NCBI RefSeq assembly: GCF_037392515.1
Contig: NC_090283.1
Coordinates: 30,024,249 to 30,088,248 of the forward strand
Source of the DNA: Haliotis asinina
Lineage: Eukaryota; Mollusca; Gastropoda; Lepetellida; Haliotidae
Length of the DNA: 64,000 bases
Direction: 5' to 3'
The notes under the pieces were generated by a model that worked only from the letters and a program-made list of their open reading frames with translations, ran no database searches and was not told the origin of the DNA. The stretch's first letter is position 1. Each line of letters opens with the position of its first letter. The position numbers and the translations under genes are program-made. Shown in pieces: positions 33,816-63,701 of this stretch.

Positions 33816-34110
33816 ACTGTTGCCTCCTTCAGTCCCCGGCCAGAGAGGATGATCTTGGTGATGTCATGGAAGCCTCCGGTGAGTCAGACAGAGGGTGGCC
33901 CGACCAGTTCAAGTGATTGGTGTGATTGCCTGGATTTCACATGTTCATACTGAAGGATTTTTTTGTGTTCACTAATATTTCGTATTCGATAAAATGAACA
34001 CCTGCAGTGTTGCTATGATTAAAGAAGACATATACTTTTCAAAAATGTAGGGAAACTGTACTTTCCTTGTACGATTGTCAAAAGTGGGAGATTTGTGGGA
34101 CTGAATCAAT
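33816..34110 (-). pseudogene. Filamin exon and intron fragment (host gene fossil)
   Basis: The plus-strand sequence from GCCTCCTTCAGTCCCCGGCC through TCTTGGTGATGTCATGGAAG to GGTGTGATTGCCTGGAT matches the filamin exon at 54064-54243. The match continues about 150 bp into the adjoining intron (TTTTTTTGTGTTCACTAATA here; TTTTTTGTGTTCATTAACAT at 54270). The intron is retained, so this is a DNA-level copy and not a retrocopy. The exon is cut off at its donor-side end, lacks about 27 nt internally, and has an in-frame TGA on the minus strand just inside its acceptor. It cannot encode a filamin repeat. Weak similarity resumes at about 34571-34615 (TAGAAACACAT, GCTAACATACAGCTACACCT), matching the start of the 50-bp intronic minisatellite at 54371. 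Confidence 0.88.
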
Positions 34111-38830: not shown

Positions 38831-38948
38831 AATTCCCTCTCCTGTTACCCCTTATTTCCTGTCACCCTTCCCTTTACCTGCACTCCCTGCTACTCCCTGA
38901 TCCGACCTATGACAGTTTGACTATCCTTCTCCATCATCTTTACCCCTA

Positions 38949-38965
38949 ATGATACAGCGTATCAT
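38949..38965. promoter_or_regulatory. Palindrome upstream of TRIM copy B
   Basis: This is the same ATGATACAGCGTATCAT as in copy A, about 310 bp before the start codon. The function is inferred only from symmetry and conservation. Confidence 0.35.
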
Positions 38966-39145
38966 CCTGTTGTATGTCCTTTTAATATCTGCATTCTAAC
39001 TGTAAAATATTTGTTTCAAATTCAGTGTTGTTTCCTGCACGTTGTCACAAAGATTGGTCACTCGTTATAATGTGATACAGTGGGACTGGCGGTGTTTTAA
39101 TGCATTTTTTCTCTGTTCAAGTTTGGGTGCGGAATTAGAGACCAG

Positions 39146-39262
39146 GTAATTCGTGGAGTCAGTATACCATTCTTGATAAACTATTCCTATTATTGAATTG
39201 AAGATATGTTATAGACTGCACTATTCTCGCTGGAACAGAGACAGTGACATTATCTGTTTCAG
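39146..39262 (+). other. Probable 5' UTR intron of TRIM copy B
   Basis: Donor GAGACCAG/GTAATT at 39145/39146 and acceptor TATCTGTTTCAG ending at 39262 frame a 117-nt intron that ends one base before ATG. The same pair exists in copy A (22668-22784). An upstream non-coding exon is therefore likely; its start is not determined. Confidence 0.5.
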
Positions 39263-39263
39263 A

Positions 39264-42200
39264 ATGGACGCCTTCCCCAAGTGTTCTGTCTGCCAGCAGC
39301 AGTTTACCTTGAAAGGTCCAGCTCCATACCTACTGCCCTGTCTACACGCCGTTTGTGAGACGTGTCTGACATCTGCAGCTGGTGGTGTGATATCATGCTC
39401 TACATGTCAGAGGGAAGTCCACCTCACAGACATAACCCTCCAGAAGGATGTAGTGAGACAGAAGGAAATATTCCATCTAACAGCCAAACATCGCCCCACA
39501 GAGCTTCTCTGTACACATGAAGATGACGGCAACCAGGCTGTGTGTTGGTGTCAGGAGTGTGAGGAGTTACTCTGTGAATACTGCCAGAACATGCACAACA
39601 GTTTTAAAGCTACCAGACGACATGTTGTGGAAAGCATCGTGGACGCAGCACCGGGAAGCATAAATACTAAACCCATCTGCAAACTTCACAATCCTTATCC
39701 TCTCGAATATTTTGACAAAAGCTGCAACATTTTAATCTGTGCCAAATGCAGACTTGGTGACCATGCTGAGCACGACATTGGTGATGTAGATGTGGCTGCT
39801 GATGCTGCTAGAGGACGAATAGAAGAACATGAGAAGAGCATGTCTGCACATCATACTTCTCACAAAGCACATGTGAAGAATATCAGCAAAGTTATAAATG
39901 ACACAAAGAAGACAAGCAGCGCTCTTAAGGAGGCCATCCACCACACTTTCCATTCTCTGAGGACACAACTCGATCAAAGAGAGAAGGAACTGGTCATCGA
40001 GCTTGAGAATCAGACGAAGCAGGGCCTGTCAAATCTGCACACCGAGCAAGTTACCTCTGAAGGTGAGAGTAAACGAAGCAAGTGGATTTCAGACTATATC
40101 AACACCGTTCTCAAATATGCTTCAAACTCGGACTTTCTCACACTGGAGAGTTCAATACAAGACAACACGAAGACGCAACTTCCACCAGAGAGGCACAGGA
40201 CACCTGCAGCCAAATTCAACACGAGAGGTCTGGATAAACTGAAATCCGACATCTGTGCCTTCGGATCTGTCAATGGACATGTTTCCACATCTGATAAGCA
40301 CACACTTACAGGTGCTTACTTCTTACTTTAAGAAAACGTCTTAATGTTTACAGTAACACCGATAGAACTTTGTCAAACATGAAAAAGTTTGAAACATTTT
40401 CTTATATTTTCCTATTATATAGTGCCCCCGTAAAATGGCTTATGGACGCTGTATGTAGACATTTCCAATAACAATAATTCAGTGAAACATTTAAATCAGT
40501 TGAGGAAGCATTTGCTGGTTATCATGACATAAAAGGCTTGATTAATGAACAGCTGTAGGTTATCTTACAGACAGAGGTACACAGACCCCCGAGTTCCATT
40601 TAATTGACACGAAGGACGCACACAAGCAGGTAAGTACTTGTTAGTCTGTAGGCAAGCGTATATACGTCGCGTTGTTTATTAGGTAAGTAACATCAACACT
40701 TTACGATGTACATATAATGTTCGCATTGTCTGTAAACTGAGCTTGTATATTAGAGCTGAAACATGCCAATGTGAATCTAAGATCGCGACATTGGGTTTTT
40801 TTTTATTTCGTTTCAAGGTGAAGTCCCTGGAGGCTGTCAACGTTTCAACACCACTGCCACAGTTTGGTAAGGTTATTTTTCATTACCTTGAAAACATTTA
40901 TGAAATAGAAAATAACAAAATTAAAAACACTACTGTTTATGTCTCGTTTTTTTCTGATGCTATGTTTCAGAATGGATACATAGCTATTCTGATATATATC
41001 AGAAACACATTCCCAAACATCCTTATGATTTGAATAGAAATATTAACGAATGGTCACAAGTTAACGACACTAGCAAATACATAGCTTGGTAATCAACATT
41101 CGGGTTTTGTACAAGATGTTATCCTGGTATTGTGATATGTGTACACATAATGGACAAGGATCCTTCATATTATAATTACCCGACAGCAGTCACATTTTGT
41201 GCAAAATCTTCACTATTAAATAGACCCAGACGTGTCGTTGAAATGGTATGCTAAGATGGAATACCTCCCAAGTCCTGAACACCTAACTTGCTCTTTATTT
41301 GTTCATGTCTGTAAGTAGTGTTGGTTTTGTTCTTTAATCCTGAAATATTTTACAGATGCGAGGAGTAAAACCTACAGTCTGGAAACAGAAACAAGGACCA
41401 CGTTGACACTGCTGTGTGAGTCACGTCAGTTTCGTGATTGTTCACGTTACACTACTGATGTACGCCCTTCTCAAACGCGATAGGTTACTGGCTCTGTCCT
41501 AGCGTGCAACCACGGGGATGTTGTACAGGACGCTGCTGAAATACTTTCACACTGAGCGCTTTCAGTATCACTGAAATCCATTGGGAGCCCCAATTTTAGT
41601 GTCGGACATTCTCTTATCAAAGACATGGGACTGGTTATAATGCGTGTATGTTTTCCATCGTCGCACTGCATGGTAAGGCATTGGATTTAAACTCATTAAA
41701 GCTTTGGCTCCTGGGGTTTGAGGGTGCGAGGTGTACCATCTCTAAGGATAAAGGTCCAGAGGGGCTTGAGGTGTTGGGAAGTATGGGGTTGGGGGGGTGC
41801 GGGGTATACCATGTGCAAGGATAAAGATACAGAGAGCTTGAGGTGTCAGGAAGGAGTCCACTTGTGACCGGCTGTAACAACCTTGTGCGCAGACTCTTCC
41901 AGTGTTGTCACAACCCCTAGTGTACAGTACACCAACGGCAGTACATTTGTACAAAGTACTGTGACTATGTGTCCCAATCCACCCAGGTGTAAATGGGTAC
42001 CTCATGTGGATGTGAAAACCGGAATAACTTGGTGCACCTAATAACTGCAAGAGTTGTATAATCCCCAGGGAGTTGAGATTGACAATCAAGTCAGGGCCGT
42101 AGTTGCCTTTCCTTAATAAGGTGGCCACTATCAACGTTAAAAGAATCTTATGTCAAAACTTTGATGCATGAAAAAGTAACTTGTTAAATATTCCCCCTTG

Positions 42201-44176
42201 GAGACTATACTTAAAGAGCATTTATGCATGATAAGTTAATATGCATAAATAATGCGTTGCCCATATATAATAAAGAGATTGTATAATTTTGTGTTTTTAA
42301 GCAGGAGTAAACGTTGAAACTGCAAGGTCAGTATTCAGTGGAGGTTATAGCTTTATTTGCATGAGTATTTTTGGAATGAATTTAACAAGCTGATGACGTC
42401 ACTTTCGCCATTCGCAGGTGTAAAAAGTCTCTTTGGCTTTCGTCAGACATGATCTTCGATTACTTAAATGTCAGTTATGTAAAAGTAACTCCAGGGAGTC
42501 CTCCAGGGAAAATTGTATATTGTTGATAAACTTTGTTTCGTCATTTCTGTTAACATTTTGAACGTATTGTTATCTTATTACGTGTATTTATATTGTGTGA
42601 TGATCGATTACCTGTGACAGTCTTTGTCAAAGTAAACAGTGAGATGAGCGCCTTAGCTTATAACAGTAACATGTGCGATGTCCGCTACAGTGGACGTTAT
42701 ACTTAAAGAGAATTTATGCTTCATAAGCCAATATGCCTAAATAATGAGTTTTTCCATATATCAAGCAGATAATACAATTTAGTGTTTTCAAGCCGGAATA
42801 TTATACATATTTGATAAACACTGTAATGAACTGTGTAAATATATACGAATATGATCAATTTGAAATCTGTCAGCTGTTAAAATATTTAGTGTTGGAATTA
42901 TAAACAGTGTTGGAATTATAAATAATCACATTTTCTAGTCAATACATATCACGCGACAACCTGTGTCCCGCCCAGCGAGTGTGTTCAGACTGTGGTCAGT
43001 GATTGAAGCAGACGTAGAAGTTACCTGTTGATACAGTGTCTGTTGAACACTCAACGATGTAAAAATATCGTCAAACAACTACTTTGTAGGTGGTATTTTT
43101 TACTAAATCGTAAAAGAAGAGTTTTGAATACAAACAATGATAGTTTTATCATGATATGAACTTTATACAAATGGGTTTTCAAGGCGGCAAGTGTCTATTT
43201 CTGACTACAGACAGCGAACCAGCTCAACTAACAAATTCTGACAAAATGTTTCATGGAGTGTTTATTTCATTGTCAATCAGTGTAAAAACATTTAGAATAC
43301 CCATACAAATATTTTTACAGCGTTATAATATCTATTTATATCACAGTTATGACACAATTCACACACAGACGAAAATGACAGCCGATATTCAGTGCGCTCT
43401 TTTGTAAACACTGAAACGAGGTTGACAATAAAATGTCTAACTTGTTGTCTGAAGTCGGGAAATTTGTTAAACTGTAAACAAAATGTGTATTTCCAGGTCC
43501 TCAACTACAACTGGACGCTGCTCGAGCCAACACAGACATGTGCCATGTAACTACAGACGGTGAGCTGGTCAACTCGCCACCCGCCATACAACACAGACAC
43601 AGCGGCAGGTTACGGAAATATCAGGGTACATGTGTCACCATCCCCATCCCCCTTCCTCCATCCCCCACTACTGTCGCCCCTGCCTCACACACCACACAGT
43701 ACTGGGAGACACACTCTAGGGTGGGTGTGGTGAGTAGAGGGTGGCCTCTTGTCCTGGAGGTGGGTATGGTGGAGGAGAGTCAGTTGGACAGAAAGATGTA
43801 TGTTTATCTACAGCGCCGCTCCTGGTGTGTCAGTGTAGGGAGCTGTATCACACACCGGGGGAGTCTCTGTACCAGGGTGTGGCCGCAGGGGGAGGAGGGG
43901 AAGTGTTACAGTAACACAATGTCTAACACACTCGGCACACAGGCCACCCTCCACTATGGCGTTGTGCTGGATGTGGGGAGGGGGAGACTCGCCTTCATCG
44001 ACCTGGACAGAGAGGTTGTTTTAGCCAAGGTGGATGTTGAGTGGAGGGAGTCTCTTCTTCCCGTGTTTGCTGCTGGGCTGCCAGATGACTACACAGTCAA
44101 CATGAAGGTGATAAGTGGGGCAGATATCATCATGACTGACACCAAGAAGTCACTTATCTATGACGCCTTGAATTAG
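39264..44176 (+). CDS. TRIM-type protein: RING, two B-boxes, coiled coil, SPRY-like domain (631 aa)
   Basis: Five coding exons: 39264-40311, 40571-40629, 40818-40866, 41356-41415 and 43497-44176. All borders are AG and GT. The joined frame is open throughout and its 1896 nt divide by three, which strongly supports the model. RING at residues 7-48: C7, C10, C26, H28, C31, C34, C45, C48. First B-box about 83-120 (C83, H85, C96, C99, C104, C107, H120). Second B-box 139-170 (C139, H142, D151 in place of the usual Cys, C154, C159, C162, H167, H170). Coiled coil about 175-290. The last exon has a proline-rich stretch (455-467) and then a SPRY-like fold from Y474 (YWETHSRVG, SWCVSVG, HYGVVLDVGRGRLAFIDLDR). 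TRIM proteins are usually RING E3 ubiquitin ligases, and SPRY domains bind targets, often in innate immunity; that role is inferred. If intron 1 were not removed, the frame would stop at 40331 after the coiled coil. Copy A is its dead duplicate. Confidence 0.9.
41910..42140 (-). repeat. SINE-like dispersed repeat in an intron of TRIM copy B
   Basis: Contains CCACCCAGGTGTAAATGGGT followed by ACC. It is the counterpart of the repeat at 25372-25610 and predates the duplication. Confidence 0.4.
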
Positions 44177-44183
44177 ACAGTAA

Positions 44184-44189
44184 AATAAA
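44184..44189 (+). terminator. Polyadenylation signal of TRIM copy B
   Basis: AATAAA lies eight bases after the stop codon, so the 3' UTR would be very short. Copy A has the same arrangement. Confidence 0.6.
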
Positions 44190-45120
44190 CATGACATTGT
44201 GTAAATATGTAAGTGTGATTTATTTATTTAAACTGTCAAATGTAATTGTAGTGATTGAGGCCCACGTATAAGTTGTCTGTCTATGTGTTGTTTGCTGTGT
44301 ACAAGAATGTAACGAGGTCAGCTAAATCTGTTGTTTTTCTACTTGATTGGATTCTGTGGGATGTTACAAACATTTTGCATCCACACATGACTATTGGTAT
44401 GATTAATATTCTGCTGTAGTTGACCAATTTATCATACATTTCATACATGTCTGGAAATGGCACAACAAATAACTGAATCCACAAGTTCATCAAAAGCTGT
44501 TTCAAATCATGAATTTATTACCGTATTTGGTTTCTACTCTGTAATGTAAATGTTTTAAATCCCCACATGAACAGTTGTGATGAAATTGTTGTCGTTGTGA
44601 ATCCACACACGTCACATTTGATGTCAGTGAAGAGATGTGGTGAAAGTGATTGAAGCGGTCACAGAATGTCCTCGTGTAAGTCGCATATTCCGAAACACAA
44701 TCAAGTTCACAGAATCTTTTGTTTCTCTAATTAGCTGGGTTTTGTTGTTAGTAAGACGTGTTTCAAATCCACACATGACTAGTTTACAGATTAAATAAGT
44801 TAGAAATCTCGGACTTCGAGGGGCACAAATCACTGTTTTCTCACCAGGTATCTCGCCGTTTGCAGAAGGTGACAAGAGATAGTGCTGCCATCTGTGAAAA
44901 AGGCGGAAATAAGCTTGTAGCATTATTTTTAAGCATTTCTGAACACTTGATAGTTCTGAACTAGTGGTAAAATCAAAATTATGTTTTATTTGGGGGTACA
45001 TTTTATCAGTACCATACCTATTCCTTTCTGGGATTCGAACCCACAATCTCAGAAAGAGTCATCTATAAAGAGCGCTTGTTAAATCATTTCTTTTACTTAA
45101 ACAGATGTGAAGGTCAATGC
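44190..45120. other. 3' flank of TRIM copy B
   Basis: Matches 27300-28237. It contains two copies of the dispersed GTGATTGAAGC motif (44251, 44646). No gene seen. Confidence 0.55.
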
Positions 45121-45275
45121 TGAGTGAGTGGGTATGGTTTTAAGCCGCTTTTAGCTAAATTCCAGCACTATCACCTCGGGGACACAAGAATTGGCTTTCG
45201 CATGTTGTATCCATGTGGGGAATCAAACCAGGGTCATCGGCGTGACGAACGAACGCCTTAACCACTAGGTCACCC
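45121..45275 (-). mobile_element. tRNA-derived SINE
   Basis: This is the same insertion as 28238-28394: TGAGTGAGTGGGTATGGTTT at the tail and CGTGACGAACGAACGCCTTA near the head. Confidence 0.8.
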
Positions 45276-47132
45276 AAAAGATCACTGGGGGCTCATGAAT
45301 TACGTGTGTTCTGAAATAATAAGTTTGTAGCTGGACACAACTGAAAACAACAGAAACTGACTTTAAGTGTTTTACCGTGTAATAATAATCGACGTGTAAC
45401 AGTTCAAGTCTAAACATACAACAAATATCCACATTTGGAACTGCATAGGACTATTGTATACTGTTTCTTTTAGCTGTAACTGAGCATGATGCAGTCTTCA
45501 ATAATCCCTGCCCTGTTACATTTGTGTAGAAACTTTCAATGCCTATATCCATTTTTAACTCTGCAGGGTTGGTGCGTTGTCTAACATTATATCAGACGAT
45601 CAAAAACTAGAGTGAGTCAGTGAGTCATTACCTTCCTTTAAACTGATATTATATTCGATGCACTAAAGTCTATTTGTGGACGAGTTATACATGTTTTAAA
45701 ATACAACGTTTCAGCAACAGATTTAGGGTTATGAGTTTCGGTTTTTTTTCCTGGATTGTGTATGTGCTGGTGAGGTATTATTAAAAGCAAAGTGTTGCTT
45801 GTTTACCAAATTCTTAGGAAAACACGTACCCCCTGACCCATCAACAACTAAACTTCATACAGTACAACTATTACTACTCTTACGATGTCAGCCATGTTCT
45901 AGGATATAACCCTACTCTAATGTATACGGCTTACATTTGATGCTCAATTAACTCATTACAGGTGCAGTTAGTTGTAGTATCATGACATTTCTCGTGACAA
46001 TGGTAAGTTTTTAATCCAAGATTGGTTTTGCAATTCTAGAGCGTATGTTGTGAATTCTGGTCATGTTTCATAATGTCAACAGGGTGGCCAATTGAAAGCA
46101 AGTAAGGGATGTTCATTTGTCAACAAACCAAAGACAGATAAAAAGATCTTCCAATAATATAATGAGTCAAACTAGAAACTTCTCAATCATATATCAATTA
46201 ATATACTATCCATCAAAACTTTAGAATCACTTATAGAACTGACTATATGTCGTGTACATGTATATACATTTGGTTACATCCAAGACCAATTTCTCCACTA
46301 ACTTTGGGGAACCAACTGCAAACCATATAGATGTGAAATGCATTAGGATCATGCATCAAATTGCTGAAAGGCATGTGCAAATATCTTGGATGTGAGCAGC
46401 TGTATTTTGATGTAAAGGTTTGGCTACTGGACAGTCAACATTAAAGCAAATTATCACTGCTATAGGATATCAGTCTTGAAAAGTGTGTATCACAACAGAA
46501 CTGATTTCATTACAGTGAGAAGCAACCAAATCATACTCTAAATTATACTATATATTTAATATTATAATTGTCAATGTAATGACACAGTGTTTGGGTATAA
46601 AACAACATCTAATTTACATCTAGGCTTAGACTAGTCATCATGAGCTTTAAAACTGTATCAGAAATAAGTCTGTTACATATAAATACTTTGATCTAATATA
46701 TTTTCTTTTACTACCATTTTCACTCATTCTCAGTGAACAGTTCTTGAATACATGATTGTAATATATCAAAATCACAAGATTATTAGAACTATGACACACT
46801 GATTCATTGCCATCAAATAGGTCACATCAGTAGGTCGTTGATTACATAGTATTGTGATCGTTGCATTATGTCTGTTGTCATAGTAACAGGCTACTCAGTT
46901 TCATGATTTATTGAACTCATGACAATAATCGTTTCAACGGTACGAATTGGCTTAACAGTACATCAGCTCATGTGTAAACATTATTTTGAACAGTGTGGAC
47001 TATACAAAATCTAATTTAGAACAGTTGACTGAGTTAAGCGGCTACATTAACACTAGTGGGTCTGAACCTTTCATGGGTTGTACAGAAATCATCAAATAAG
47101 AGGCGAAAATAAAATGTCAAGCCACAGGAAAT
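45276..47132. other. Non-coding part of the duplication
   Basis: Matches copy A without its 1.26-kb insertion; the join is at about 45625-45630 (GTGAGTCATTACC). It includes 46427-46890, the second of three copies of an AT-rich block. No gene seen. Confidence 0.55.
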
Positions 47133-47830
47133 TAAATCTGATGTGATGTTCAGTAAATGGCCACCCCGTGTGTTCACAACTGCCAAGCGCCGCCTCCTGA
47201 TGCCTGTAAAAACATTACTTGGGAGTCGGCGAAATTGTTCCTGCAAAGCAGCACCAACATCCATCAAATCCCCGGGTTGGTTCGGGAGAGTACACGGACA
47301 TGTGCTATGTGCATCCCAGTTGTACTCGATTGTATTGAGATCAGGTGATCTTGACGGCCAGTCAAGAACGTTGATTCCTGCGTTCTCCAGGTAATTCCTC
47401 TTCAAGTTGGTTGTGCGGGGTCCGGCATTGTTGCTTTGCAAGTGCACACCTAGACACTGTGCTGCCATAAATGGAATAATTTTGGGGGCTAGCACCTGGT
47501 CACGGTAAACTGAAGCATTAAGATTCCCATACATAACCAGAAGTTGGTAATAGGCAATCCCACAGAAAGCACCCCCGAACCATGGCACTCCGCCCCCAAA
47601 ACTGTCACCTTCCTGTATAACGTTCATGGCGTCGAAACAGCACTCTCGCCACTGATGACAACTCGATTCCTGTCTGTCTGAGACCATCGGAGGTGTCGAC
47701 GGACCCACTGCAAAAGCTGACGTCGATGTAATGGCGTCAAAATGGTTCCAGTATGGTCGTCGAACACCAGGATGAGCTGTCGGTTTCAGATGTTTTGTGC
47801 CGACAATGGACCACTAAGCAGCCCATTTCT
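47133..47830 (-). mobile_element. Tc1-like transposase remnant, catalytic half (copy B)
   Basis: On the minus strand, one long frame reads GGGVPWFGGAF, YGNLNASVYRDQVLAPKIIP, NAGPRTT, INVLDWPSRSPDLNTIEYNW and RRRRLAVVNTRGGH. These are the DDE-domain signatures of Tc1 transposases up to the usual C-terminal RGGH. The residue equivalent to the second catalytic Asp (DNARPHT in the family) is Asn. Upstream of about 47700 the match (LTPLHRRQLLQW) continues in another frame. The N-terminal DNA-binding half is not seen and the copy is dead. Confidence 0.87.
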
Positions 47831-47849
47831 GCTTCTGTAGCTAAAGTTG

Positions 47850-48817
47850 GGTATTGCCACGATATTCACATTCCGACAGATTGTGATATGTGTTGGCATG
47901 TGGAAGTGTAACAGATGGTTTAAGGTAATTAAAGTACTGTTTCGTTTCTTTCGAAACAATGCCATGCAATGACCACTGCAAGGAGTCAGATGTGATTGTA
48001 CATGAGATCAACTGAAAGTGCTTCCAAATCCACTCTGAAGATTTGAACGCGAGAATATTCTTCCGCAGCGGCGTCCGTCAATTTGGTTTCTTTATCCTAC
48101 GACGACTGCCAGTAACAATCTATCTTTTCATTTATATGGTTTAAAAGTCACGCACGTACAATTATATGACCAAAAACATTCTAAAACCTATTGACGTGTA
48201 ATATTATAAAGGAAATACAAACATTCTCGGTATTTTTACGACATCACGAAAATTACGCATCGGGTGAACAGTTTCAGGAAAGGTGTACCGCAATATACCG
48301 TATTGTGAAGTTGAAACTGCAATATACCCGCTAACTGGTATATTACCGCCTACCCCTACACGTAGCCATCAAAAACAACTTTTACAAAAATGACGTAAAA
48401 CAATTTGACGACCCTACACCTGTGACGTCACACGAGCTCGACCTGACCTTGGCCGATCAGCAGTGGTGCCTGTTTGTTGCAGTTTGTTCACTCACTAGGC
48501 AACTTGTTTAATGTCTTTATATCTGAATATGTCTTTGATGTTCTGTCCAGAGATCATCCTCCAATGGTTTCACATTTTCCTGTACTAACAGCAGATCACC
48601 AGCTTCTGTTTTGTTTTGGAAAACATTCGTAAATTCAGTTTTGGCAAGATAAAATTCGGCAACAGACAATTTACCTTAGGTATCTGTAAAACGGGATTTT
48701 TTCAAGAAACATGCCCATAAGAAAACTGAAAGGACGAACAGCAGTAAAGACAAGGGGGAACATATTTGTTGAGAATAGTGAGCTGAATAAATCACAGCGT
48801 ACAACTTTCTTCAAAAT
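47850..48817. other. Non-coding part of the duplication
   Basis: Matches 32400-33430 in copy A but carries only one arm of the inverted repeat found there. No gene seen. Confidence 0.5.
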
Positions 48818-48940
48818 AGAGGAGCGGTGTAGCCCTATGGGTAAATCGTCAGCGGAGACCCGGGTTTGAATCCCAACATGGATACAATGTGTGACGCCCA
48901 TTTCTGGTGTTCCCTGATATTGCTGGAATATTGATGAAAT
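48818..48940 (+). mobile_element. tRNA-derived SINE fragment
   Basis: This is the same insertion as 33431-33551, with the B-box-like GGTTTGAATCCC and no 3' tail. Confidence 0.8.
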
Positions 48941-49089
48941 GCCGAAATTGATTCGATATTGTTTTCATTCATATGACTCTTGAATTTTGTGCAACCACTG
49001 CACAGAGTCAATATGTTGGATGGAAATACTGGGAGAATACATCAACAGAAAGTGGTTAGCTGTGGAAACCATGCATAAAGTTAATCAAA

Positions 49090-49810
49090 TAGGACATGGA
49101 ACTGTGCTGATGTCTTAATAATAAAACGCACCATGTCATGATGTCAAAATAATAAAATGCAACATGATGTCAAAATAGTAAACACAATAATATTATGTGC
49201 TGATACCATAGAAGCAAATCATAATGTGCTGATGTCATAATAGTAAAACACAATGACTGATGTCATTATAGTAAAACTCAATATTTGCTGATGTCAAAAT
49301 CATTAACTGCAACATGCGATGATGCCATAATAGCAAAATGCAATGTGCGCTGTCATAATAAACACATGCAACATGTGGTAAAACATAATCTGCTGATGTC
49401 ATCATAGCAAAACGCAACAAGTGCTTGTAATATATTCTCTACACAAAGCAAATAGAGCTTGGTCCATACTTTAATTCCAGCTTTGTGACCATTACAACAT
49501 GGCGATACCACATGAGAGAGAGACATTCCAAAGTTAATACCTCCTAAGATCAAAACTCTAAAACGAAATATAATCCTATTACAGTGCTGATTCCATTATA
49601 GTAAAACCCAAAGTGAGCTGATGTTACAATATTAAAACACAACATGTAATGACACCATTATTGCTAAAACCAACATGTGCTGATGCTCTTGAAGTGAAAC
49701 AAAACAGCTGATGTCACTGAAATGAAACGCATGTGCTGATGTCATTATATTGAAGCACACCACAGGCTGACGTTACTGAAGTAAAACACAACATGTGATG
49801 ACGTCAGTAC
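49090..49810. repeat. Short-period TGATGTCA-containing tandem repeat
   Basis: About 15-20 diverged units of roughly 30-37 bp share cores like GTGCTGATGTCATAATAGTA followed by AAACACAA. An unrelated segment interrupts it at about 49425-49560. Copy A holds only its first few units. Confidence 0.8.
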
Positions 49811-51307: not shown

Positions 51308-51558
51308 CTAAAACTCCTCCCTCCACTGACTGTAACCCCGAGAGCTGTGTAGTGTGCTGTTTGGGTAGGATTCTTCTTTCAGGACTTGCTCCAGTTCTTG
51401 CTGAGTGTCCACAATATGCACATGGAAAGGACTGCCTGGCACATCCAAATTGGACCATTTCACGTGGATAATATACAGTCCAGTCTCCGTGGGATCAAAA
51501 CGACAGAGAATTGTTCTATCCTTTTGGCTATCTCTGTACATTTCCACTTGAAATGCCC
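51308..51558 (-). CDS. Terminal coding exon of the filamin-family gene
   Basis: The acceptor ATATTGCAG precedes 51558. The exon encodes the second half of the last Ig repeat (AFQVEMYRDSQ, DPTETGLYIIHVKW, LDVPG), then SPFHVHIVD and a charged, Gln/Glu-rich then Ser-rich tail ending QWREEF at the TAG whose complement is 51308-51310. The tail resembles no part of the repeats. Confidence 0.9.
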
Positions 51559-54500
51559 CTGCAATATGAAAAAACATATAGTAGGAGTGGAAAAACATAA
51601 AACTTAGTTCAGTGAACATTTTTGTCCTGTTTGAAGCATAACATCACCATGTGGTAAGCAGTCGTCTCCCTTTACAGAAAACTTTAAACATGTGTTAAAC
51701 ACTCTGTGTCATTTCCCACTTATTTGGAGTCGACGAGGAAAATACCAAGTTAATAACATTCAGGGGCCAGTATCTGTCTAATCTACCCAACAATACAGTC
51801 GGATCTTTAATATAGCATATACTTCACCATGAATACATAAAACCAAACATTTCTGTCCACAGAGCATTTTCTGTTTGCTCGGTTTGTATAACATGTCAAG
51901 ACAGATTGAAATAGCAGCAGGGTTTGTGCATATATTGTCTCAATAATTAAAAAATAGAAACATAAACCTTTGATATCATCTAATGAAAACCCACTCTCAC
52001 ACAAGGATCTCTGCTATTCTTCAGTCCAAATTCTGACCGAAAATGTACAGTCAATACCTCTGAAGAATTTCAAAGAATGTTAGTTGTTCACTGCCTACGA
52101 GGGGGGCATGGGTTGATGTACCGTCATGTTTGTTTATCTTCCCTTAGTTACATCGCTGTGGTGTAATTTCTCTTCTTAATGTACACAGGCACTACATCTG
52201 AACAATTTGTCAATATTTATTCATTGCAATGTGAGGCAAAACTTTTCATAGCCATCGCCAGATTTTGCAGAACATACAAGAAAAAACAGATTAAGAGCTA
52301 TCGCCTTTCCATCAATGTGCATTCTCAAAGCATTGGTAATTTCTATGCATCGATCTTATCAAATGTTATACAAAATAAAGAAGAACTACCACAAGGTACC
52401 AAATGAGTTACCATTGGTAGCGGGGTACATTGAAATGTACCTCAATTGTATGTGGAGTACACTGAAAATTATAAATGTGTGCTCAGCCAGTCAAACGACG
52501 ACTTTTATGTGGGAGGCAAGATACAGAATTAGATATGGAGTGTGATGAGACAAAGGGTCCATACCTTTGGGCCCTCTGATCCTGACCATCAGCTGACCAG
52601 CGCCAGCACCACGGGTCTCCACAATAAAGCGAGACTGGAAGCATGCTAGAATACCATGCTCAACGCCGGGACCGCTCACACGTACTTTGCTGGCATCTGG
52701 CTGAGCAGATACTCGGAAAACAAAAGGGCTTCCTGAGAACAAATCACAAACATCATTCATGATAAACTGTTACATAAAATACCTAGATCTTACATGGTAC
52801 CTGTAGCAATGTTCACTGGGCAGAAGTAAACTTTGCCAACGTTCCTATATTCCATACTGGATCATGACAGTCTCAATCAAATCCAAGAAGCATTTTCAAA
52901 ATTTATTTCTGATCCTCATGAATTATTATCATTGGAAAGGGTTCTTTGAAATAAAAAGTTTTGAAAGCATATTATAAACATAACACTACTGAAAAGCATC
53001 AATGTGAGATCAATGTAATTGAAAAGCCCTGCTGTGTGAGAGCTCCTGACTAGAGAGAGCACGTACCTAAGACATGCTCTCCACCATATTTGACCTGCAG
53101 TACATGTCTCCCTGCCTCCTGAGCCTTTACTAAGAGACGGAAGGTGCCATCCCTGTTGTCCTCGAGGTCGCAGTAGGCCACCTTGTTAGGACCAGTGCAG
53201 AAAGCTGTTAGTTCACCTGGGAATAGGAATCCGAAGTATACATTAAGTTAAGACTATGGAGTTTTCCAAAGTTCTACGTCAATATGGACGTAATTCTCAT
53301 AAGCATTAAAATGCCCCAAACAAACACATCATACAACACATTTTTCTTCAAAGCAGGTTAGTCAGTTGAGAGTGAAAGTGATTGAAGCAGACATAGAATG
53401 TCCTTGTGTACATGATGAGAAAGATCTTGAATAGTACTTAAAACTGAATTCACTCTTTACCTGGTCCTGCTTTCCGTGTATCAATTCTGATATCAAGGTC
53501 ACGACCTAAAAGACCTCCCTTTAGACCTTCACCCGTTACAGCAACCTTGTTTGGGTAGAAAGCACCAATGACGTTGACCTTGAATGGAGCTCCCTTGACG
53601 TGACGGTCATTCCAGGTGATGTGGAGGAGATATGCTCCTGGGATTACTGGAATATATGTACATCTGTACTTCCCGCCACCAAGAGGCGATATGATGACGT
53701 TGACCTCTGCCCTCACTCCTGTAAGCTGAACCTGAGGTTCACCTGCAAGTAAATAACAATATGTGAAAACATGAATGCACAAGTGTGCATTTATTTTTTT
53801 CCAAATTTTCACCACAGTGCATGGGGACAAATGCAGTCTCCCTTTAACACTATACTATTCCAGTCATTGGGGTGCAGGAACATGTCTGCATGAGGAAAAG
53901 GCATTTCACACGTTGAAGTCTACTGGTAATTAGACCCATGGGTTTAAAAACGTGGTATTTGCTTGTTATTAAGCCCATGAGCCTAAATTAAGGTTTCAAA
54001 TTTTATTGTTTAGAGTGATGTCCCTTTGCAAAAGCACAAGGCAGTCTTGCGCTCTTATAGTACCTCTGCCAGCCTGGGACCCATCAATGAAGAACTCAGC
54101 CTCCTCTCGGACTGTGGCCTCCTTCAGTCCCCGACCAGAAAGGATAATCTTGGTGATGTCATGGAAACCTCCGGTAGCATAGGCAGAGAAAGCAGAGCCG
54201 GACAGAGGGTGACCCGACCAGTTAAGGTGAATGGTGTGATGACCTGAATTACACAAGTTCATATGAAAAGATTTTTTGTGTTCATTAACATTTTGTATCC
54301 CATAATTGAAAACCTGTAGTGTTGTAATGATTACAAAAGATATATGATAAATTGCAGCATACAGTTACCCTAGAAACACATGCCTCTCTATCAGATGCTA
54401 ACATACAGCTACACCTCCCTGCCTCAGAAATGCATCCCCATCAGATGTTAACGTACAGCTACACCTCCCTGCCTCAGAAACGCATCCCCATCAGATGTTA

Positions 54501-57500
54501 ACGTACAGCTACACCTTTGTGCCTCAAAAACGCATCCCCATCAGATGTTAACATACAGCTACACCTCCCTGCCTCAGAAATGCATCCCCATCAGATGTTA
54601 ACATACAGCTACACCTCCCTGCCTCAGAAACAGATCCCCATCAGATGTTAACGTACAGCTACACCTTACTGCCTCAGAAACACATTTCCATCAGATGTTA
54701 ACATACAGCTACACCCCCCTGCCTCAGAAACGCATCCCTATCAGATGCTAACATACAGCTACACCTCAGATCCTAGAAGCACATCTCCATCAGATGTTAA
54801 CGTACAGCTGCCCTCACTGCCTCAGAAACGCATCACCATCAGATGTTAACATACAGCTACACCTCATGGCCTCAAAAACACATCACCATCAGATGCTAAC
54901 ATGTCTACTACAGCTACACCTCACAAATCCCAGAAACACATCCCCATCAAATGTTAACACCCTCACTGCCTCAGAAACACATCTCCATCAGATGTTAACA
55001 TGCAGCTACACCTCATGGCCTCAAAAACACATGTCCATCAGATGCTAACATACAGCTACACTTCATCGAATCCACAAACACATCCCCACCAGATGTAGAT
55101 GAATAACTGGAGATTTGCCCACCTTCTTCTCTGGGGGTGAAGATGACAGTGCTTTTGCCATTGTAGCTATCATCAACAGTGCAAGGCACAATGGAGCCAG
55201 TAGGACCCCGCACCTCCGCTGTTAGCTTGCCTGAAAAACACCATACTTGATGTTTACAAAAACTGCTCACCAAAAATATGCAGCTAGTTGTTTTCATGTT
55301 TACAATATACCACTATCACGTGATTGCTCATAATACCACACAATACATTATGTCCATGGTCAATGAACAAATGTGCACTACATTTTTTCCTAGCTCCTGA
55401 AGTATAGAGTCCAGAAGTATATTTTTTCTCAAGTAAACCTCCTTTCTGAGTCATATACCATATCTCTGGAACATTCTATAGAATAACCCTGGGACATTCT
55501 ACAGAATAACCCTGGAACATTCTACAGAATAACCCTGGTATATTCAATACAATACTCCAAACTTGGCGATGAAAGTAGATGTTCATGTAAAGAATTCTTT
55601 CAACATCAACACTCTAGTGTTAGAAATCAATTGAAAAATGTCGTCAAAGATCAAATTGAAAGTGCAAATGTTTTCCCTCTCTGGATTAGAAATGCATCAG
55701 TCAGACAGTGAATCAGATGCTCTACCTCAAGGCTACTGAACCGATGAAAAATATAGTGTTAAATTATCTGTTTTTACCGTCATAACATAGATTTGACCAC
55801 TTCGGTTACTCTTATGTAGCTTCATTACTTCATTATCCATCATTGACCGTTTATATGACTGACTTTGATAAATTTGTTGTCCTCTTTGATTTACATGACA
55901 GATATAACAAAAATTCAGGGTTGGCTTTTCACTCGTCATCGTGTTTACATTTTCAACCAAAACTTTGGGATCGTGTTACATACTTAACATTTTTACATCA
56001 TACTTCATTCCACTCGGCAGCCATTTACAGCTTTTTGAGCAGACATTTTAAAGATTCGCTATCCTTGGGTCACATCACATTTGGTGACACTAGCTCCAAA
56101 AACAGTACATAATGCTTTATCAACAGAATTTGGAATTTGGTTTACTTTCACATTAACATGTTAATGTTTGATTCAACAGAAGTAAAAGTCCACACATTCT
56201 CAGGTTTTACCCTTAAAAACAACTATTCTGTATCATATCTTACTCACTATCTGTAATGCCAATTCAGAGATGGTATCTACGTAATTTGATGTAAGCTACA
56301 GTTACTGATCACCTGGTCCTGCCTCAGCCGTCTCGAATGGGATGTGCTTCTCCTCCCCGACCACAAGGTGGATACGTTCCTGTGAGTCCATGTAGTGCTG
56401 CCAGCCACCAATCACACGCACCTTGCGGGCATCAACGATGCGAGGGTGGAAAGGACTACCTGAAATGTGCATAATTCACTGAACTCACAGAGGAATGAAA
56501 GGCGGTGGATGGAAACATTAGTGACCGACTTTAAAAAAACAAAGGAGTCTGATTTGTTTGTCACGAATATATTTAATATAGCATGTTAATTTAATATAAG
56601 TAATATATTTATTCCTTCCATGTTGTCAACTACATCTCAAATTGTCAAGGGAGAAATCACAATGACTGCCCTTAATGATGTCAAAATATACTAAAAGTTT
56701 AAAAATAGGTAGAAAAATAAGAAAACTTCGAATATTCAACAACAGATTCATGTATTTAGATACAAAATGGAAAACACTAAGTCTAGAACTAGATGTTAAA
56801 TCAATATATCCACATAGTGAAAACATTACATTTAAACTATTCTTAATTTTAGTTCTAAAGCATGAAAAAAAGAAACACGTCAGCGTGTCAAACTCCACAC
56901 AGAGTAATTCATAAAAATGTCAGCTACTTTTAGATAAGGATATATTAACAAATTTCATTCAAATTACTGTTTTCTGAGAATAGAAAAAGAAAGAAGTGCA
57001 ACGAAATCTATTCTACACAGTTCAATGTGAAGACGAAGGCACATTGAATGGCACAAGGTGAATTACTTAAACAGACATTTTTTCAAAGTGCAGAGAGCTA
57101 AGCTTTGTGACAGCAAGTGCAACAAACATGTTTCGTTACAACAGCTTCACGAGTTATCCCCCTTATCTTCCATTTTATACAGTTCAAGCTCTGCAAAATA
57201 CATACATTCAGAGATTCATCTACCAAAGTACCAAAATCAGTCTCATAACAAATAAAAAGCAAGAAATTCACTTTAAGCATATTTCAAAAACATGCCACTT
57301 CATCAGATCTAACACAGAAAATTTAGTCATCACAATTCTAACTATAACAAATTTATCACGATCATAACAAAAACAGATGAAATCTTCCACCTGTAATAAT
57401 AACATGCCAGCCACCATTATATATTTTATGATTTTTGTTACCATGGATATCCCGACCGTTCCACTTGACAGTAATATCAAACAGCCCCGTCTCCACAGGG

Positions 57501-59613
57501 ACGTAGGTGATGGCAAACCGGCCTCCTGGCTGGGGGTCTATGCTACACTTGGCTATAGAGTTAGGGCCTGAAAGCATTGAGAGCCAGTTGGCATAAGGAG
57601 TTGGTGAGGAGAACGCTAGCTAGAAGTATGTGTCAGTCTAAAGTCATCTAGTCATCATCCTTTGTACAGGAAAGTGTCGCAAACCTTGTGCATTTCCTGC
57701 TTATTTTCACTAAAATTAATGTACTGTAATTTACATCCACAAATAATATTTTGCATCTTGTCTGAAACACATTTTTCAACACTGATTTGGTAACGATGTT
57801 GTAAAAGCACGTTGAGATTTACTTACACATTGACTGCCACCACAAGAATACTCATCAATATAATTTCTGATCATATTTGCCACACCAAGTTATCTGATAG
57901 CTACATCAGTTGGGATTTTAAAACAAAAAAAGATGTAATTGTCTCCTGGTGTTAACTAAGAACCCAAGGATCCATTTGTTTTTTGTGCCTATTTTGCCAA
58001 CATGTGAAACTGATGTAACTACGAGATAGTGTAGTGGCAAATTCAATCAGAACTGACACTATGAGTATATCCATGATAGGCAATCAAAGTGTTAAATGAA
58101 TGAAGGCAGCAGTAAGCTCCCAAATGTACAACACAAGATATGCACAAGTTACGACAACTTATGACAAGATATGACAAGCTATCACATCAGTTTCGCTCCC
58201 CTGCTCATTTCACTGTTTGCACATTGTGACTTGCCTATCAACACAATCATTAACACAACTGCAAACAACCAAATGATTATGAGCAGGGTAATTTGATTAC
58301 ATCTGTACATGATGGTAGACTAAACATCTACAAAGAGACACGCTCGTCTGCAACTAAAGTGAAAATGTATTTTACAATTATTAGCTGAAATAAAATACAA
58401 AAACTGCATATGCAAATCTGGAAAAAACTGTCAAAACTATGTTATCTCTACCTATACATAGCTTATACTTTGTAAGGTAAAGACACTACACCTGAGACAT
58501 AGTGGATAGAAACTATTGGAAATACTGATAGGTTCACGTTCCAACAATCTAACATATCAAACATGAATATCTGTCACATTGTCAAATTACATTTTAGTGT
58601 AAGAATCTCCTGTAATTACACCACTAACCTTCCTGACAGAACATCTGTCACACCGGCAAAAAATACATTTTAGTGTATGAATCTACTGTAATCACCCCAC
58701 TAACCTTCCTGACAGAACATCTGTCACGTACACCGGCAAAAAATACATTTTAGTGTATGAATCTACTGTAATCACCCCACTAACCTTCCTGACAGAACAT
58801 CTGTTACTCTGTGAAATTACATTTTAGTGTATGATTCTCCCACATTCAACCAGACATGAGCCAACATTCATGACAGATTATCTGTTACTCTGTCAAATTA
58901 CATTTCAGTGTAACATATTTCCGGTAAATTCATAGACCAGCACCACTAACCTGCCTAATGTCTGTTTCCTTTGTGAAGTGTACATTTCCGAGTTACATGT
59001 TTTCCAAAACCACTCCACCAAGCTGCCTGTCTGATGTCTATTTCAGTCTGTAGTAATACATTTCTTCAAAGCTCAGAACAAAGGGAGGATAGGATTTCTG
59101 TGGCAGGTGAACTGATACCTCATGAAATATATATGATAAAAATTACTCGCTTATCACTAGGTTGCTGAAGCTTGTGGACACGGATTCTAATATTCTCTAT
59201 ATGGTCCTCGCAGGACAGGTACCTCTGAGTCAATCAATAATGACATGTTTATAGAATGCTCCAGAATCAATGCAACTAGATGTCAGTAAACATTGCAATG
59301 TCAATATGTGAAATGTTTCCCTGGAGATAATCACAACTGTCACTGAGTGTCATACTGTGCAACTGATGAATATTTAAGAGCTTGAAGGCAAACGTTTAAA
59401 GGTTTGTGAGTTACTCATTATGATGAGATCACAACAAAGTCATTTGCTATTTGTGACTTAGGATTTACAATAAATCGGGTTCCGATTACTCCGGCGAATC
59501 TTGAAAACCCTACTGTTTTTAAGCATGGTATAAATAACATAACCGTGTCATTATTTCGGAAACTACTTGTTACATATCTACAACTGTACGCTTGGTATTC
59601 TCATCACTGTCTT

Positions 59614-59647
<34 letters not shown>

Positions 59648-62600
59648 TAGATATTCCTACCTACCTACCCCACCCTACCCTTCCCATGTACTCTGTCCTA
59701 CAGATCCAGAGACAAATACATCCAAGAAATTCTATACAGTCTAGAATATGTGGCAATAGATTTCCAGGAAATAAGGTCTCTCGGTGCCTTTCGTTATATT
59801 TCAAGATTAAATTCATGACTTAACCCTGAAAAGCTGCAGGACTTAAAAGGTCGTTGGTCCTGATCAGAATGTGTAAGGCTTATATTTTAACATGGAAATA
59901 ATACGCTCAGTTACTGGTGATTAAAAAGCTGTCGGCCATGACCTAAAGAAAACAAAAGATGTTGGCCCAAGTGGTTTTCAGTCAGCTTCGGGCATAAGAC
60001 AGAGGAACACTGATTACTTTTCATGGACAGATATTTTTCCGTACTGTTTGTAAATTTCAGAGACTAGATGTTAGTCTGTCACAGATGGTGACACCAGAGA
60101 CCATATAAGGTCTCTGGTGACACCTATCACTTAGTGAATTATTCTTCAGTATTTTACTGTACATGGAATAAGATGGAGCTTAAAATGATACATTATTAAA
60201 GATATCAATGCATGCCCCTGACGCTAACCCTGAAAATAATGCACACTAATGACAAAGAGAGAGAAATACAGGGGTGACTATCTAAAAGCAGACAAGATTC
60301 TGTGATGAAAAATGTCAAAAGCATTGTGAACTGTATTTGACCTAAGTCTGTACATCACCAGAAGCAACACATTGTTAGTAGCACGATCTATATGTGTCTA
60401 TTTCACGTGTCACATCTAGGACCTACAGCAGCTTCACCATCTTACCCTCCACCACTACAACAGATGTTTCGACCGCAGTGACTGATGCCACAGCGGTTTG
60501 TAAATCCCTTTCCTCTTCCATTTTGACGATCATGGATGTCGTTTCGACATCATCCTCAACTTGACTCTTCCGGTACATCTTGTCCCCACCACCCTCAATT
60601 TCAAAGCCATCTTCGTCAACTTCATACTGCCTGATATCCCTATTAACTGCCTCAGTTCTCCTGAAAAGCTCTTCCCTATCATCCCCAGTTTCATTGTAAT
60701 CCTCAGCAACTTGATATTGTCTCACCACATGCTCTTCATTGTAATGAGAATGTACCTCTGTGACGCTCGTTCTCATCACAGATGACTGACTGATGTGCAG
60801 TGCAGATGCTTCCTGTTCTCTACCTGGTAGTACACAAGGAATGTTCTTACACATCATAGACCCAGACTAATAACAAACTTAATGATGAAATATTGCATTT
60901 TGTCATTGGAATCCAAGGAAAGGGGGTATTTTCACATCCCTGATTTACAGTTGTCTTGTGATTGGTGTGACATTGGTACCTTACCATTGTGAATGATTAG
61001 ACTGAAACCAGATCATGGATAGGAAGAACACTGACAAGAAAATGGATAGGAAGAACATTGACCAGAAAATGGATAGGAAGAACACTGACCCAGAACATGG
61101 ATAGGAAGAACACTGACCCAGAACATGGATAGGAAGAACACTGACCCAGAACATGAATAGAAGACAACTGATCCTGAACAGGAACAGTAATTACACTGCT
61201 CTAGAACATAGTAAGGAATCACATTGATGCAGACCATGTGTAGGAATGACATCAGCCCAGAACATGCTCAAGAATCATTTTAAGCAACCCAGAACTTGGA
61301 CAAGAATTACATGAATCAAGATCAAGGACAGGACTGGCTATATCACTTCACACGTCAGCAGTTGCAGCTTCTGTACCAGTAATATCTTGGTCTTATTCTT
61401 GAAACGTTTGTAACTTTGGAATTCTTAACTTTGATTGTGGCAAATGCGTTGAGAATGGACTTAAGAATTTCGTAGGGCTATGAACATTTTGAAAATAGCT
61501 AGCCTGATGCTAGTTGCATGACATATGAACAGAGAAAAGTAACATTTCATAAAACTGCAGCAAGCATTAGTTGCAACAATACTCAGGTACATATCTGAGG
61601 GGAATTACTGTAGCAAGTATCTGAGGGGAATACTGTAGTATCTATCTAAGAGGCAATACTGTTGTGTGTATCTGAGAGACAATATTGTAGAATGTACCTG
61701 AGTCAATACTGTAGAATGTACCTGAGTCAATACTGTAGTATGTACCTGAGTCAATACTGTAGTATGTACCTGAGTCAATACTGTAGTATGTACCTGAGTC
61801 AATACTGTAGAATGTACCTGAGTCAATACTGTAGAATGTACCTGAAAATACTGTAGTATGTACCTGAGTCAATACTGTCGAATGTACCTGAGTCAATACT
61901 GTAGTATGTACCTGAGAGTCAATAATGAAGAATATGTCTGAGAGACAATACATTTGTGTGTATCTGAAAGACAATACTGAAGAGTGTACCTGAGAGCAAA
62001 TATCGAAGTACATACCTGAGAGACAATACTGTAGAATATACGTGAGAGAATACTATAACATGTACCTGAGAGACAATACTGCAGAACGTATGTGAGAGTC
62101 AATACTATAGCAAGTACCTGAGACACAAAACTGTAGAATATATGTGAAAGACAAAACTACAGTAAACTTTCACAAAACAAAAACAACCAAGCAATATTCA
62201 CTACAGTTACACCTCTTGCAACAGACACGAAAAAACCAGTGACACCTGACACGATGACCAAGAATAGTCAGGACTTTAAATCCAAGACCATGCATGAAAA
62301 TGTCATCAGGTTCATCCTTCAACAAGTTTCACACAAAAAACACTCTTCATCTCTCCATCAACACAGCTAGACGTTGTGCTGAAGCAATTGTTTGGCCAGC
62401 ACATGTAAGTCCTGATAATGGGTAGAACACACATCAACATCCACAGTCTGTTGGGATAGAACACTAATCTCTTCTGTAGAAGTGTAGGCTATATGGTAAA
62501 AGTGAAATCCATCACTATCAGTTTCATGACATATACATGAAACACATGGTGTAACGCATTTGTACCTGCAAGGTGTACCGGGAGAGATCATATCAAGAAA

Positions 62601-63701
62601 GTCTGCCTGGGACCCGATTTCTCGAAAAAAACTCAAGTTTTGTACTCAAATCTTTACTTGAGTTTGACAATTTTGACAAGCTCATTTACATTTCTTTGAC
62701 CAAACTCAAAAACTTGACAACTCAAGTAACCTGTCTATCAAACTCAAACTGTCTACTAAGTTTAAACTCAAAATCAATTTCAGTTCATTTTGGGAAACGC
62801 ATTTTCTAGTGTTTTATCAAACTTGAGTAAAAACTCTACCATAAGTCAAAACTCAAACCCAGGTTTGTTTCAAGAAATCAAGGCCAGCTCCCTGTCATAA
62901 ATATGGCTATAAGGATAATAATATATAGTTATATAGGATATAGTTAGCCCAGACATGAATATAGAGCATATTGCCTGAATAATTTGTAAATTCATATTTG
63001 CAAAAGAAGCCAGAAAACTGTGTTTCATATTTTGGCAGAATAAGTATCTCAGGTCCCTTGTGGATAAAAAAGACATGACATCATGATGGAAAATAGTAAT
63101 TCACACATGACAATAAAAGACATCTTCTTATCACAATATAAACAACAAGAACAAAAATATTCAGGCATGAATCAATGTTACTCCAAGGCAGGTTCTTCAG
63201 AAAAAATGCCGACCATTACAGTTGTTATTTCAGGAAAACAGAACAAAAAACAATAAGCAAGCAACCACTGACACCAAATTTTAAAGTCTTCAAGAAAGAA
63301 TATAAATTCTCAGTCCTTGAATAATGGGAAAGAAGGATGAAAATTCATCATCTCAACTGATTTTGTTTTATATTGAAGCACACAGCTGAAGCAAATTTGT
63401 GCTATGAAAGTTTCTTGAAATGATGATATTTCTGTCAAATGATATATATTTCCACATCTTGTGTTTACCGTGTGTAAATACATCAGCACTTTTCATAAAC
63501 CATGACCATTTCCATACAGGTAAAACATGTCACATGACCACTGTTCTGTATACGTACCATCGACTTGTATTGTGGGTTCACCAGTAATCCCTCCAGATTC
63601 CACGAAGAAGGTAGCAGGCTTGTCTTCTTCACCCCGGTACAACCCATCTCCATGGGCCGTAGCCAGAGCTCCCTCCCCGATCTCCTGGGTGAATGGACTT
63701 C
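51308..63701 (-). CDS. FLN: Filamin-family protein, C-terminal part (five Ig-like repeats and tail)
   Basis: Exons in transcript order: 63558-63701, (60446-60823, optional), 57442-57567, 56313-56459, 55123-55230, 54064-54243, 53461-53742, 53067-53216, 52565-52732 and 51308-51558 with the stop. Every junction is AG/GT and phase 1, and the joined frame stays open. Filamin Ig repeats are marked by GSPF/APF starts (GSPFTQEIGEG, SPFHPRIVD, SAFSAYATG, APFKVNVIG, SPFVFRVSA), mid-repeat AGPG or AGRG, and ends such as DITVKWNGRDIHG and YIIHVKWSNLDVPG. Five repeats are covered, then a 35-residue tail (HIVDTQQELEQVLKEE to QWREEF). Filamins cross-link actin and dock receptors and signalling proteins. The actin-binding CH domains and earlier repeats lie beyond the right edge. 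The last repeat is followed by a tail instead of ending there as in vertebrate FLNA. It could be a jitterbug-type paralogue; the exact orthology is not decided here. Confidence 0.92.
54371..55098. repeat. 50-bp intronic minisatellite, about 14 units
   Basis: The unit is CCTCAGAAACGCATCCCCAT followed by CAGATGTTAACATACAGCTA and CACCTCCCTG, exactly 50 bp in the best copies. It lies in the filamin intron between 54243 and 55123 and runs to within 25 bp of the next exon. A single decayed unit lies by the fossil exon at 34571. Confidence 0.95.
55468..55540. repeat. 23-bp repeat, three units
   Basis: GGAACATTCTACAGAATAAC followed by CCT occurs three times in a row within a filamin intron, with one or two differences. 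Confidence 0.9.
58568..58960. repeat. 74-81-bp tandem repeat, five units
   Basis: Units share ACATTTTAGTGTATGAATCT and CACTAACCTTCCTGACAGAA followed by CATCTGT. The marker ATTTTAGTGT (ATTTCAGTGT in the last unit) recurs at 58591, 58667, 58747, 58821 and about 58902. The second and third units are nearly identical and the outer ones are diverged. Confidence 0.9.
59614..59652. repeat. (GACA)n microsatellite
   Basis: Eight or nine GACA units followed by two GATA units, in a filamin intron. Confidence 0.95.
60087..60124. repeat. Perfect 16-bp inverted repeat with a 6-nt loop
   Basis: GGTGACACCAGAGACC, then ATATAA, then GGTCTCTGGTGACACC. It would form a stable hairpin in DNA or in the filamin pre-mRNA. 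It lies about 320 bp from the optional exon, on its 3' side in transcript terms. Confidence 0.95.
60446..60823 (-). CDS. Candidate cassette or alternative terminal exon of the filamin gene (126 codons)
   Basis: The acceptor GTGTACTACCAG and the donor-like GGAGG/GTAAGAT enclose 378 nt, open, starting and ending in phase 1 like every other filamin exon here. The encoded stretch is acidic and polar (REQEASALHISQSS, VAEDYNETGDDREELFRR, YEVDEDGFEIEGGGDK, VEDDVETTSMIVKMEEERDL). It ends in a valine run (VVVVE) and has no filamin repeat motif. If the donor is not used, translation stops after KMVKLL at 60423-60425. Inclusion would place 126 residues in the middle of an Ig repeat, between IQVDG and PNSIAKCS, which join perfectly when the exon is skipped. 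It is therefore probably alternative. It could be a regulated hinge, a short isoform's last exon, or less likely a fortuitous frame. Confidence 0.6.
61012..61185. repeat. 28-bp tandem repeat, about five or six units
   Basis: The core ATAGGAAGAACACTGACCCA followed by GAACATGG is repeated with few changes. More diverged relatives (CAGAACATG, AGGAAT) continue to about 61340. Confidence 0.9.
61582..62160. repeat. 24-bp minisatellite, about 24 units
   Basis: The unit is ACCTGAGTCAATACTGTAGA followed by ATGT, with variants. As 24 divides by three, frames are open on both strands; they encode simple repeats (TQVHSTVL) and are not genes. It lies in the large filamin intron. Confidence 0.95.
62616..62880. 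mobile_element. Probable MITE
   Basis: The ends GATTTCTCGAAA (62616) and TTTCAAGAAATC (62868-62879) are inverted repeats with one mismatch. The interior is rich in ACTCAAGTTT-like motifs in both orientations, and there is no coding frame. The family and target-site duplication are not clear. Confidence 0.6.
62881..63557 (-). other. Filamin intron sequence
   Basis: AT-rich intron next to exon 63558-63701. No further exon or repeat recognised. Confidence 0.5.

Follow-up and report, generated by a model that had tools for sequence, protein, structure and literature searches.

Filamins cross-link the actin skeleton of the cell. In filamin C, an insert of 82 residues lies inside repeat 20 and is described as serving myotilin binding and Z-disc localization, and it contains Akt and PKC-alpha sites whose phosphorylation lowers FILIP1 binding (PMC7216277, PMC7244511). 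Hinge 1 of the same protein (exon 32) is a non-Ig segment removed by splicing, and according to a 2020 review every filamin-partner complex known at that date uses the cleft between strands C and D; the review lists the effect of the repeat-20 insert on the R20-R21 domain pair as not known (PMC7216277). Across animals, the second rod of canonical filamins is reported to be extremely well conserved between worm, fly and human; FLN-2 and jitterbug are described as divergent filamins, with poorly conserved repeats and long intervening stretches, and the domains of FLN-2 are usually spread over several small exons, a few of which are alternatively spliced in frame (PMC3143143).

Here we analyze 64,000 nucleotides of Haliotis asinina DNA, hereafter the window, in which an open exon, X, would place an insert within a repeat of a filamin gene. 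We give a probability of about 0.72 to the reading that X is a real coding exon, internal to the gene of a divergent filamin, and that its product would form an acidic, largely disordered loop within a repeat, used for partner binding and phosphorylation in the manner of filamin C. The initial annotation of this DNA had treated an in-repeat insert as unusual, since known filamin hinges lie between repeats. The insert described inside repeat 20 of filamin C (PMC7216277) speaks against that objection; human muscle already offers the principle.

The titles and abstract openings surveyed on molluscan and gastropod isoforms, jitterbug and invertebrate inserts, a set with most subscription papers outside it, contain no description of this exon. 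On molluscan filamin isoforms, Mendez-Lopez et al. 2012 is cited by title in PMC12040844. In the passages surveyed, a study of scallop muscle proteomics mentions filamin and no insert (PMC5963113).

The 3' part of a filamin gene

The minus strand of the window carries the 3' part of a filamin gene, the 5' part of which lies beyond base 64000, where any CH domains would also fall; in canonical filamins two of these make up the N-terminal actin-binding domain. We placed ten exons by reading frame, splice dinucleotides and similarity (Table 1), and re-reading the sequence bore out the coordinates, splice dinucleotides, phase and translations first given for X. A polyadenylation-type AATAAA follows the stop codon of the last exon, E10, by 36 bases. 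The roughly 33-residue tail between the last filamin repeat and this stop (51308-51400, minus strand) lies in E10, which has the lowest codon score of the gene, and for that reason the 3' end may differ from the one mapped here.

Table 1. Exons placed on the filamin gene and the read-through extension of X, with the grounds for placement where given.
Feature	Position	Strand	Content	Basis or remark
E1	63558..63701	-	Split repeat, part one; ends ...PTIQVD/G	Fitting frame open, AG/GT, phase 1; Pfam filamin once joined with E3 and E4
X (insert exon)	60446..60823	-	378 nt, phase 1-1, acidic, without known domain	Splice sites, frame, codon-position bias
KMVKLL + stop (read-through extension)	60423..60445	-		Applies if the donor after 60446 is unused
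E3	57442..57567	-	Split repeat, part two; starts PNSIAKCSID	Frame, splice sites, Pfam and structure matches
E4	56313..56459	-	Split repeat end and Rc start	
E5	55123..55230	-	Rc middle	
E6	54064..54243	-	Rc end and Rd start	
E7	53461..53742	-	Rd end and Re start	
E8	53067..53216	-	Re middle	
E9	52565..52732	-	Re end and Rf start	
E10	51308..51558	-	Rf end, ~33-residue tail and stop codon	AATAAA at 51272

With X skipped, SPFTQ...PTIQVDG-PNSIAKC...NGRDIHGSPF reads as an ordinary filamin repeat. As proposed at the outset, E1 and E3 joined directly, together with E4, gave a single Pfam filamin repeat (PF00630; 54.6 bits against a gathering cut-off of 26.9), and the same joined exons matched human filamin structures (best E 3.2e-20). 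This clean junction is only suggestive as regards X, because any exon inserted into an old intron leaves one. The four repeats claimed downstream of X were recovered individually by Pfam, with Rc, Rd, Re and Rf scoring 46.6, 63.8, 65.0 and 76.2 bits (cut-off 26.9). With X left out the path has eight junctions, all of them phase 1 and within a glycine codon. The same holds for the two junctions of X, and the frame of E1 puts its acceptor in phase 1 as well. The matching phase remarked on earlier is real but to be expected, since every mapped boundary of the gene is phase 1.

We compared the five repeats with human FLNA. They share 27-45% identity with FLNA19-21 and 22-39% among themselves. Repeat by repeat, in a comparison confined to FLNA19-21, four of the five scored best on FLNA19, including Rf and Re, whose best matches were thus not on 21 and 20; the split repeat scored marginally best on FLNA21. 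The last repeat, Rf, was also compared with the terminal dimerization repeat of filamins: its best single-repeat score was 57.9 bits, on FLNA19, followed by 51.0 on the opening repeat of filamin C chain 7ouu and 46.5 on filamin C chain 1v05, which we take to be Ig24. With phmmer, Rc-Rd matched FLNA18-19 (96.5 bits for the chain) and Rd-Re-Rf matched FLNA19-20-21 in one ordered stretch at 127.5 bits, but repeat order is not decisive for the type of filamin because Rd-Re-Rf match FLNA3-5 as well (115.8 bits). The repeat content of these FLNA chains is assumed or drawn from PMC3143143. Poorly conserved repeats and one possible intervening stretch liken this gene, by published description, to FLN-2 of C. 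elegans and jitterbug of Drosophila. Going by those descriptions and the FLNA identities, a divergent filamin of that kind, putatively FLN-2/jitterbug-like, is likelier than a canonical one; the ordered match of Rd-Re-Rf to FLNA19-20-21 would count against it, though not decisively.

The rest of the window is rich in repeated sequence. Six matching pieces at 81.5-90.0% identity make 21864-33816 and 38396-49237 collinear blocks on the same strand, a segmental duplication. Each block has a plus-strand open frame with a RING-like start, read as RING by eye (22756-23244 and 39180-40328). At the end of the first block a fragment of E6 with its flank recurs (33816-34033 against 54111-54345; 77% identical, with one run of 22 residues the same in protein) and is probably a broken exon copy. 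On the plus strand, 1-14140 holds repeated motifs in long open frames of up to 435 codons (12832-14136), as in a long tandem array, and 18031-22300 and 38383-38843 are self-similar, with motifs such as HLSSHYTPVT recurring in long open frames. A further self-similar stretch (54372-55096) falls in the E5-E6 intron; its unit is probably about 50 bp because open frames on the plus strand recur every 50 bases.

Frame, splice sites and coding signal of exon X

Exon X lies between an AG and a GTAAG in the 6-kb intron that separates E1 from E3. Only one of its six frames is open, without a frameshift or stop over 378 nt, and it is the frame that both neighbors need; stops interrupt both remaining sense frames (5 and 15) and all of the antisense frames (7, 3 and 6). 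Splice matrices built from the gene's other exons, and rough because these offer few sites, gave the acceptor of X a score of 3.55 (0.87-9.45 for the nine other acceptors, leave-one-out) and its donor a score of 6.21 (3.21-6.63 for the eight other donors). Among all such sites of this intron these scores rank 45th of 370 AGs and 24th of 464 GTs. Of the good splice sites claimed for X, it holds that they fall within the range of the gene's own, and they are not outstanding. Many of the top-scoring AG and GT sites in this intron fall in a 24-bp tandem array of 21 copies (61606-62139).

If the donor after position 60446 went unused, X would be an alternative last exon, with the protein ending after KMVKLL and lacking part two of the split repeat as well as Rc to Rf. 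The frame does close in this way, within 23 nt of the donor, as had been pointed out, and in C. elegans fln-2b is described as ending early at a stop introduced by alternative splicing (PMC3143143). The donor is nonetheless among the better ones of the intron by the rank given above, and from 60446 to 57568 (2.9 kb) there is no AATAAA or ATTAAA, only the weaker variants AATACA (60337, 58371), AGTAAA (60158, 57823), AATATA (59886, 59800) and TATAAA (59253). We therefore disfavor the truncated isoform that had been suggested and regard it as very improbable.

Could X be unused, either an open frame that arose by chance or a relic of an exon since lost? Its open length alone is weak evidence to the contrary, because 49 of 2000 order-1 simulated introns contained an open sense stretch of at least 147 codons. 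When splice sites and phase were added, none of 400 order-2 simulated introns yielded an open exon that was phase 1-1, 378 nt or longer and flanked by splice sites equal to or better than those of X. Applied to the real intron for lengths of 300-600 nt, the same criteria returned two stretches, X and a 318-nt candidate exon (61698-62015) that we set aside because it sits in the 24-bp tandem array. As to a derivation of X from a repeated sequence, X lies outside the tandem arrays of its intron, and no second copy of it was found within the 64-kb window.

Codon-position asymmetry sets X apart from the introns most clearly. Its value was 0.0315, whereas 1393 windows from the gene's introns averaged 0.0037 (sd 0.0024) and peaked at 0.0157; 0 of 20000 base shuffles matched X. 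Four X-length pieces of the gene's other coding sequence gave 0.012-0.018; that X exceeds its neighbors is due in part to an abundance of Glu, Asp and Val codons. Between 51000 and 64000, open stretches of 60 codons or more had values above 0.019 only where they overlapped X or lay in tandem arrays. By itself this measure is blind to frame and strand, and overlapping frames of the X DNA are also high on both strands; the frame and strand of X are called from the stops and from the codon score, for which the fitting frame, at 0.084, surpasses the other five (-0.446 to -0.012). The score of 0.084 lies above all 996 intron windows on each strand and below eight of the nine other exons (leave-one-out), E10 alone being lower. 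The synonymous-only codon score of X was -0.09, and because about 10% of intron windows reach this value, synonymous codon choice gives X no support.

These measurements bear on both sides of the idea that X is unused. The synonymous score lies inside the intron range, as an idle frame would have it, and the open length is reached in simulation; against this stand a codon-position bias far outside the intron range that fades near both splice sites, the intact fitting frame and the failure of simulated introns to produce a comparable exon. Disuse seems unlikely to us. By its codon-position bias, frame and splice sites, X is very probably a coding exon, as had first been proposed.

The course of the bias along the DNA marks the limits of this signal. 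In 90-nt sliding windows the asymmetry was 0.02-0.09 in the body of X, against 0.011 in its first window, 0.004-0.017 immediately before the acceptor and 0.005-0.03 past the donor, a drop near both splice sites. Values of up to 0.09 return farther upstream, where a T-rich tandem array shows another base pattern. Because the first window of X is at background level, its true 5' boundary could lie further in.

The same region could instead hold an alternative first exon, driven by an internal promoter in the 6-kb intron and giving a protein with an acidic N-terminus followed by part two of the split repeat and by Rc to Rf. The open frame runs on for 14 codons upstream of the acceptor and includes two in-frame ATGs, the first at 60857, and short filamins have precedents: FLN-1C, FLN-2C and FLN-2D of C. 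elegans are described as lacking the actin-binding domain, FLN-2C and FLN-2D through alternative transcriptional starts (PMC3143143), and Drosophila CherA as comprising the last 8 Ig domains, from a gene with internal transcription starts (PMC5521747). Yet the codon-position bias stops short of the ATGs, though it is weak at the start of X too; the boundary of X offers a usable phase-1 acceptor like those of the gene's other exons; and the product would begin with a partial repeat. We consider a first exon here quite unlikely; including X as an internal exon agrees with every boundary.

The predicted insert product and its place in the repeat

Exon X encodes 125 complete residues plus a Gly codon completed at the junction. 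In keeping with the acidic, non-Ig character ascribed to it, the product has a pI of 4.4 and a net charge of about -18, without Cys, Pro or Trp, and it had no Pfam match at E up to 10, the filamin family included. Its best PDB matches were tRNA-splicing endonucleases at E 0.34-0.42, which we took as chance. Among prokaryote contigs, X matched an Arenimonas record; the best segment covers residues 45-121 at 32% identity, with an E of 7e-6 calculated over candidate stretches only. Given the many charged residues of the query and the bacterial source of the record, we likewise put this match down to chance. No relatives turned up in these contigs for a piece of exon E7. A possible internal duplication within X (60447-60821, minus strand; RQYQVAED and RQYEVDED) is suggestive, with a score reached by 8 of 500 shuffles.

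By charge and hydropathy the insert as a whole classes as disordered, its mean hydropathy of 0.407 lying below the boundary of 0.465. The remainder of the mapped protein, at 0.464 against a boundary of 0.417, classes as folded. The exception within the insert is its C-terminal 35 residues, which lie on the folded side (0.53, boundary 0.475).

X splits a filamin repeat, as had been claimed: with X included, the Pfam filamin family is still detected at 49.4 bits, now as two stretches. Aligned to FLNA21, the insertion point is between AVEG and PSKAEI. FLNA residue 2272 presumably falls within the LAIAVEG stretch. A review places this residue in strand C of repeat 21 (PMC7714767). On that alignment X would enter at the turn after strand C, adjoining the cleft between strands C and D. 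The initial annotation had expected inclusion of X to break the beta-sandwich; with the junction aligned to the end of strand C, at what appears to be a surface turn, the sandwich need not break.

The sequence shows the anatomy of X, its coding signal and its composition and, by alignment, its place in the repeat; we infer from these that X is used in mRNA, that its product would be disordered in the protein and that it would affect the binding of partners. X would be spliced in, as a cassette or as a constitutive exon, and would extend the repeat by 126 residues, acidic and largely disordered, at the turn that follows strand C, with four repeats still to come before the C-terminus. The halves of the split repeat would still be able to pair, so that the insert would act as a loop and not as a break. 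Lying beside the CD ligand cleft, this loop may serve as a binding and phosphorylation segment that changes which partners this region of the rod holds, on the model of the repeat-20 insert of filamin C. By analogy with that insert, a partner-binding loop regulated by phosphorylation is the most likely role for X.

A more specific version is a long shot: the insert could be a splicing-controlled lid, in which strand-prone segments such as ETTSMIVKM or AVETSVVVVE act as a tethered pseudo-ligand in the repeat's own CD cleft, a cleft within their reach given that the insert would start at the turn following strand C. If so, inclusion of X would shut the site to partners until force or phosphorylation frees it, and an invertebrate filamin would have gained an in-repeat regulator independently of filamin C.

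Likeness to and difference from filamin C

As a phase-symmetric loop exon after strand C, X would amount to a natural experiment on how a filamin repeat tolerates and uses an insert, and it would suggest that in-repeat inserts arose more than once among filamins. In filamin C the insert presumably sits ahead of strand C and has many basic residues. Like hinge 1 of filamin C, X would encode a filamin segment outside the Ig fold; unlike X, hinge 1 sits between repeats 15 and 16 and not in a repeat. The repeat-20 insert would share with X a long segment within a repeat near the C-terminus, followed by four repeats (R21-R24 in filamin C). The two differ in length, 126 residues for X against 82, and in that X is strongly acidic, forms a phase 1-1 exon of its own and, by alignment, would enter after strand C.
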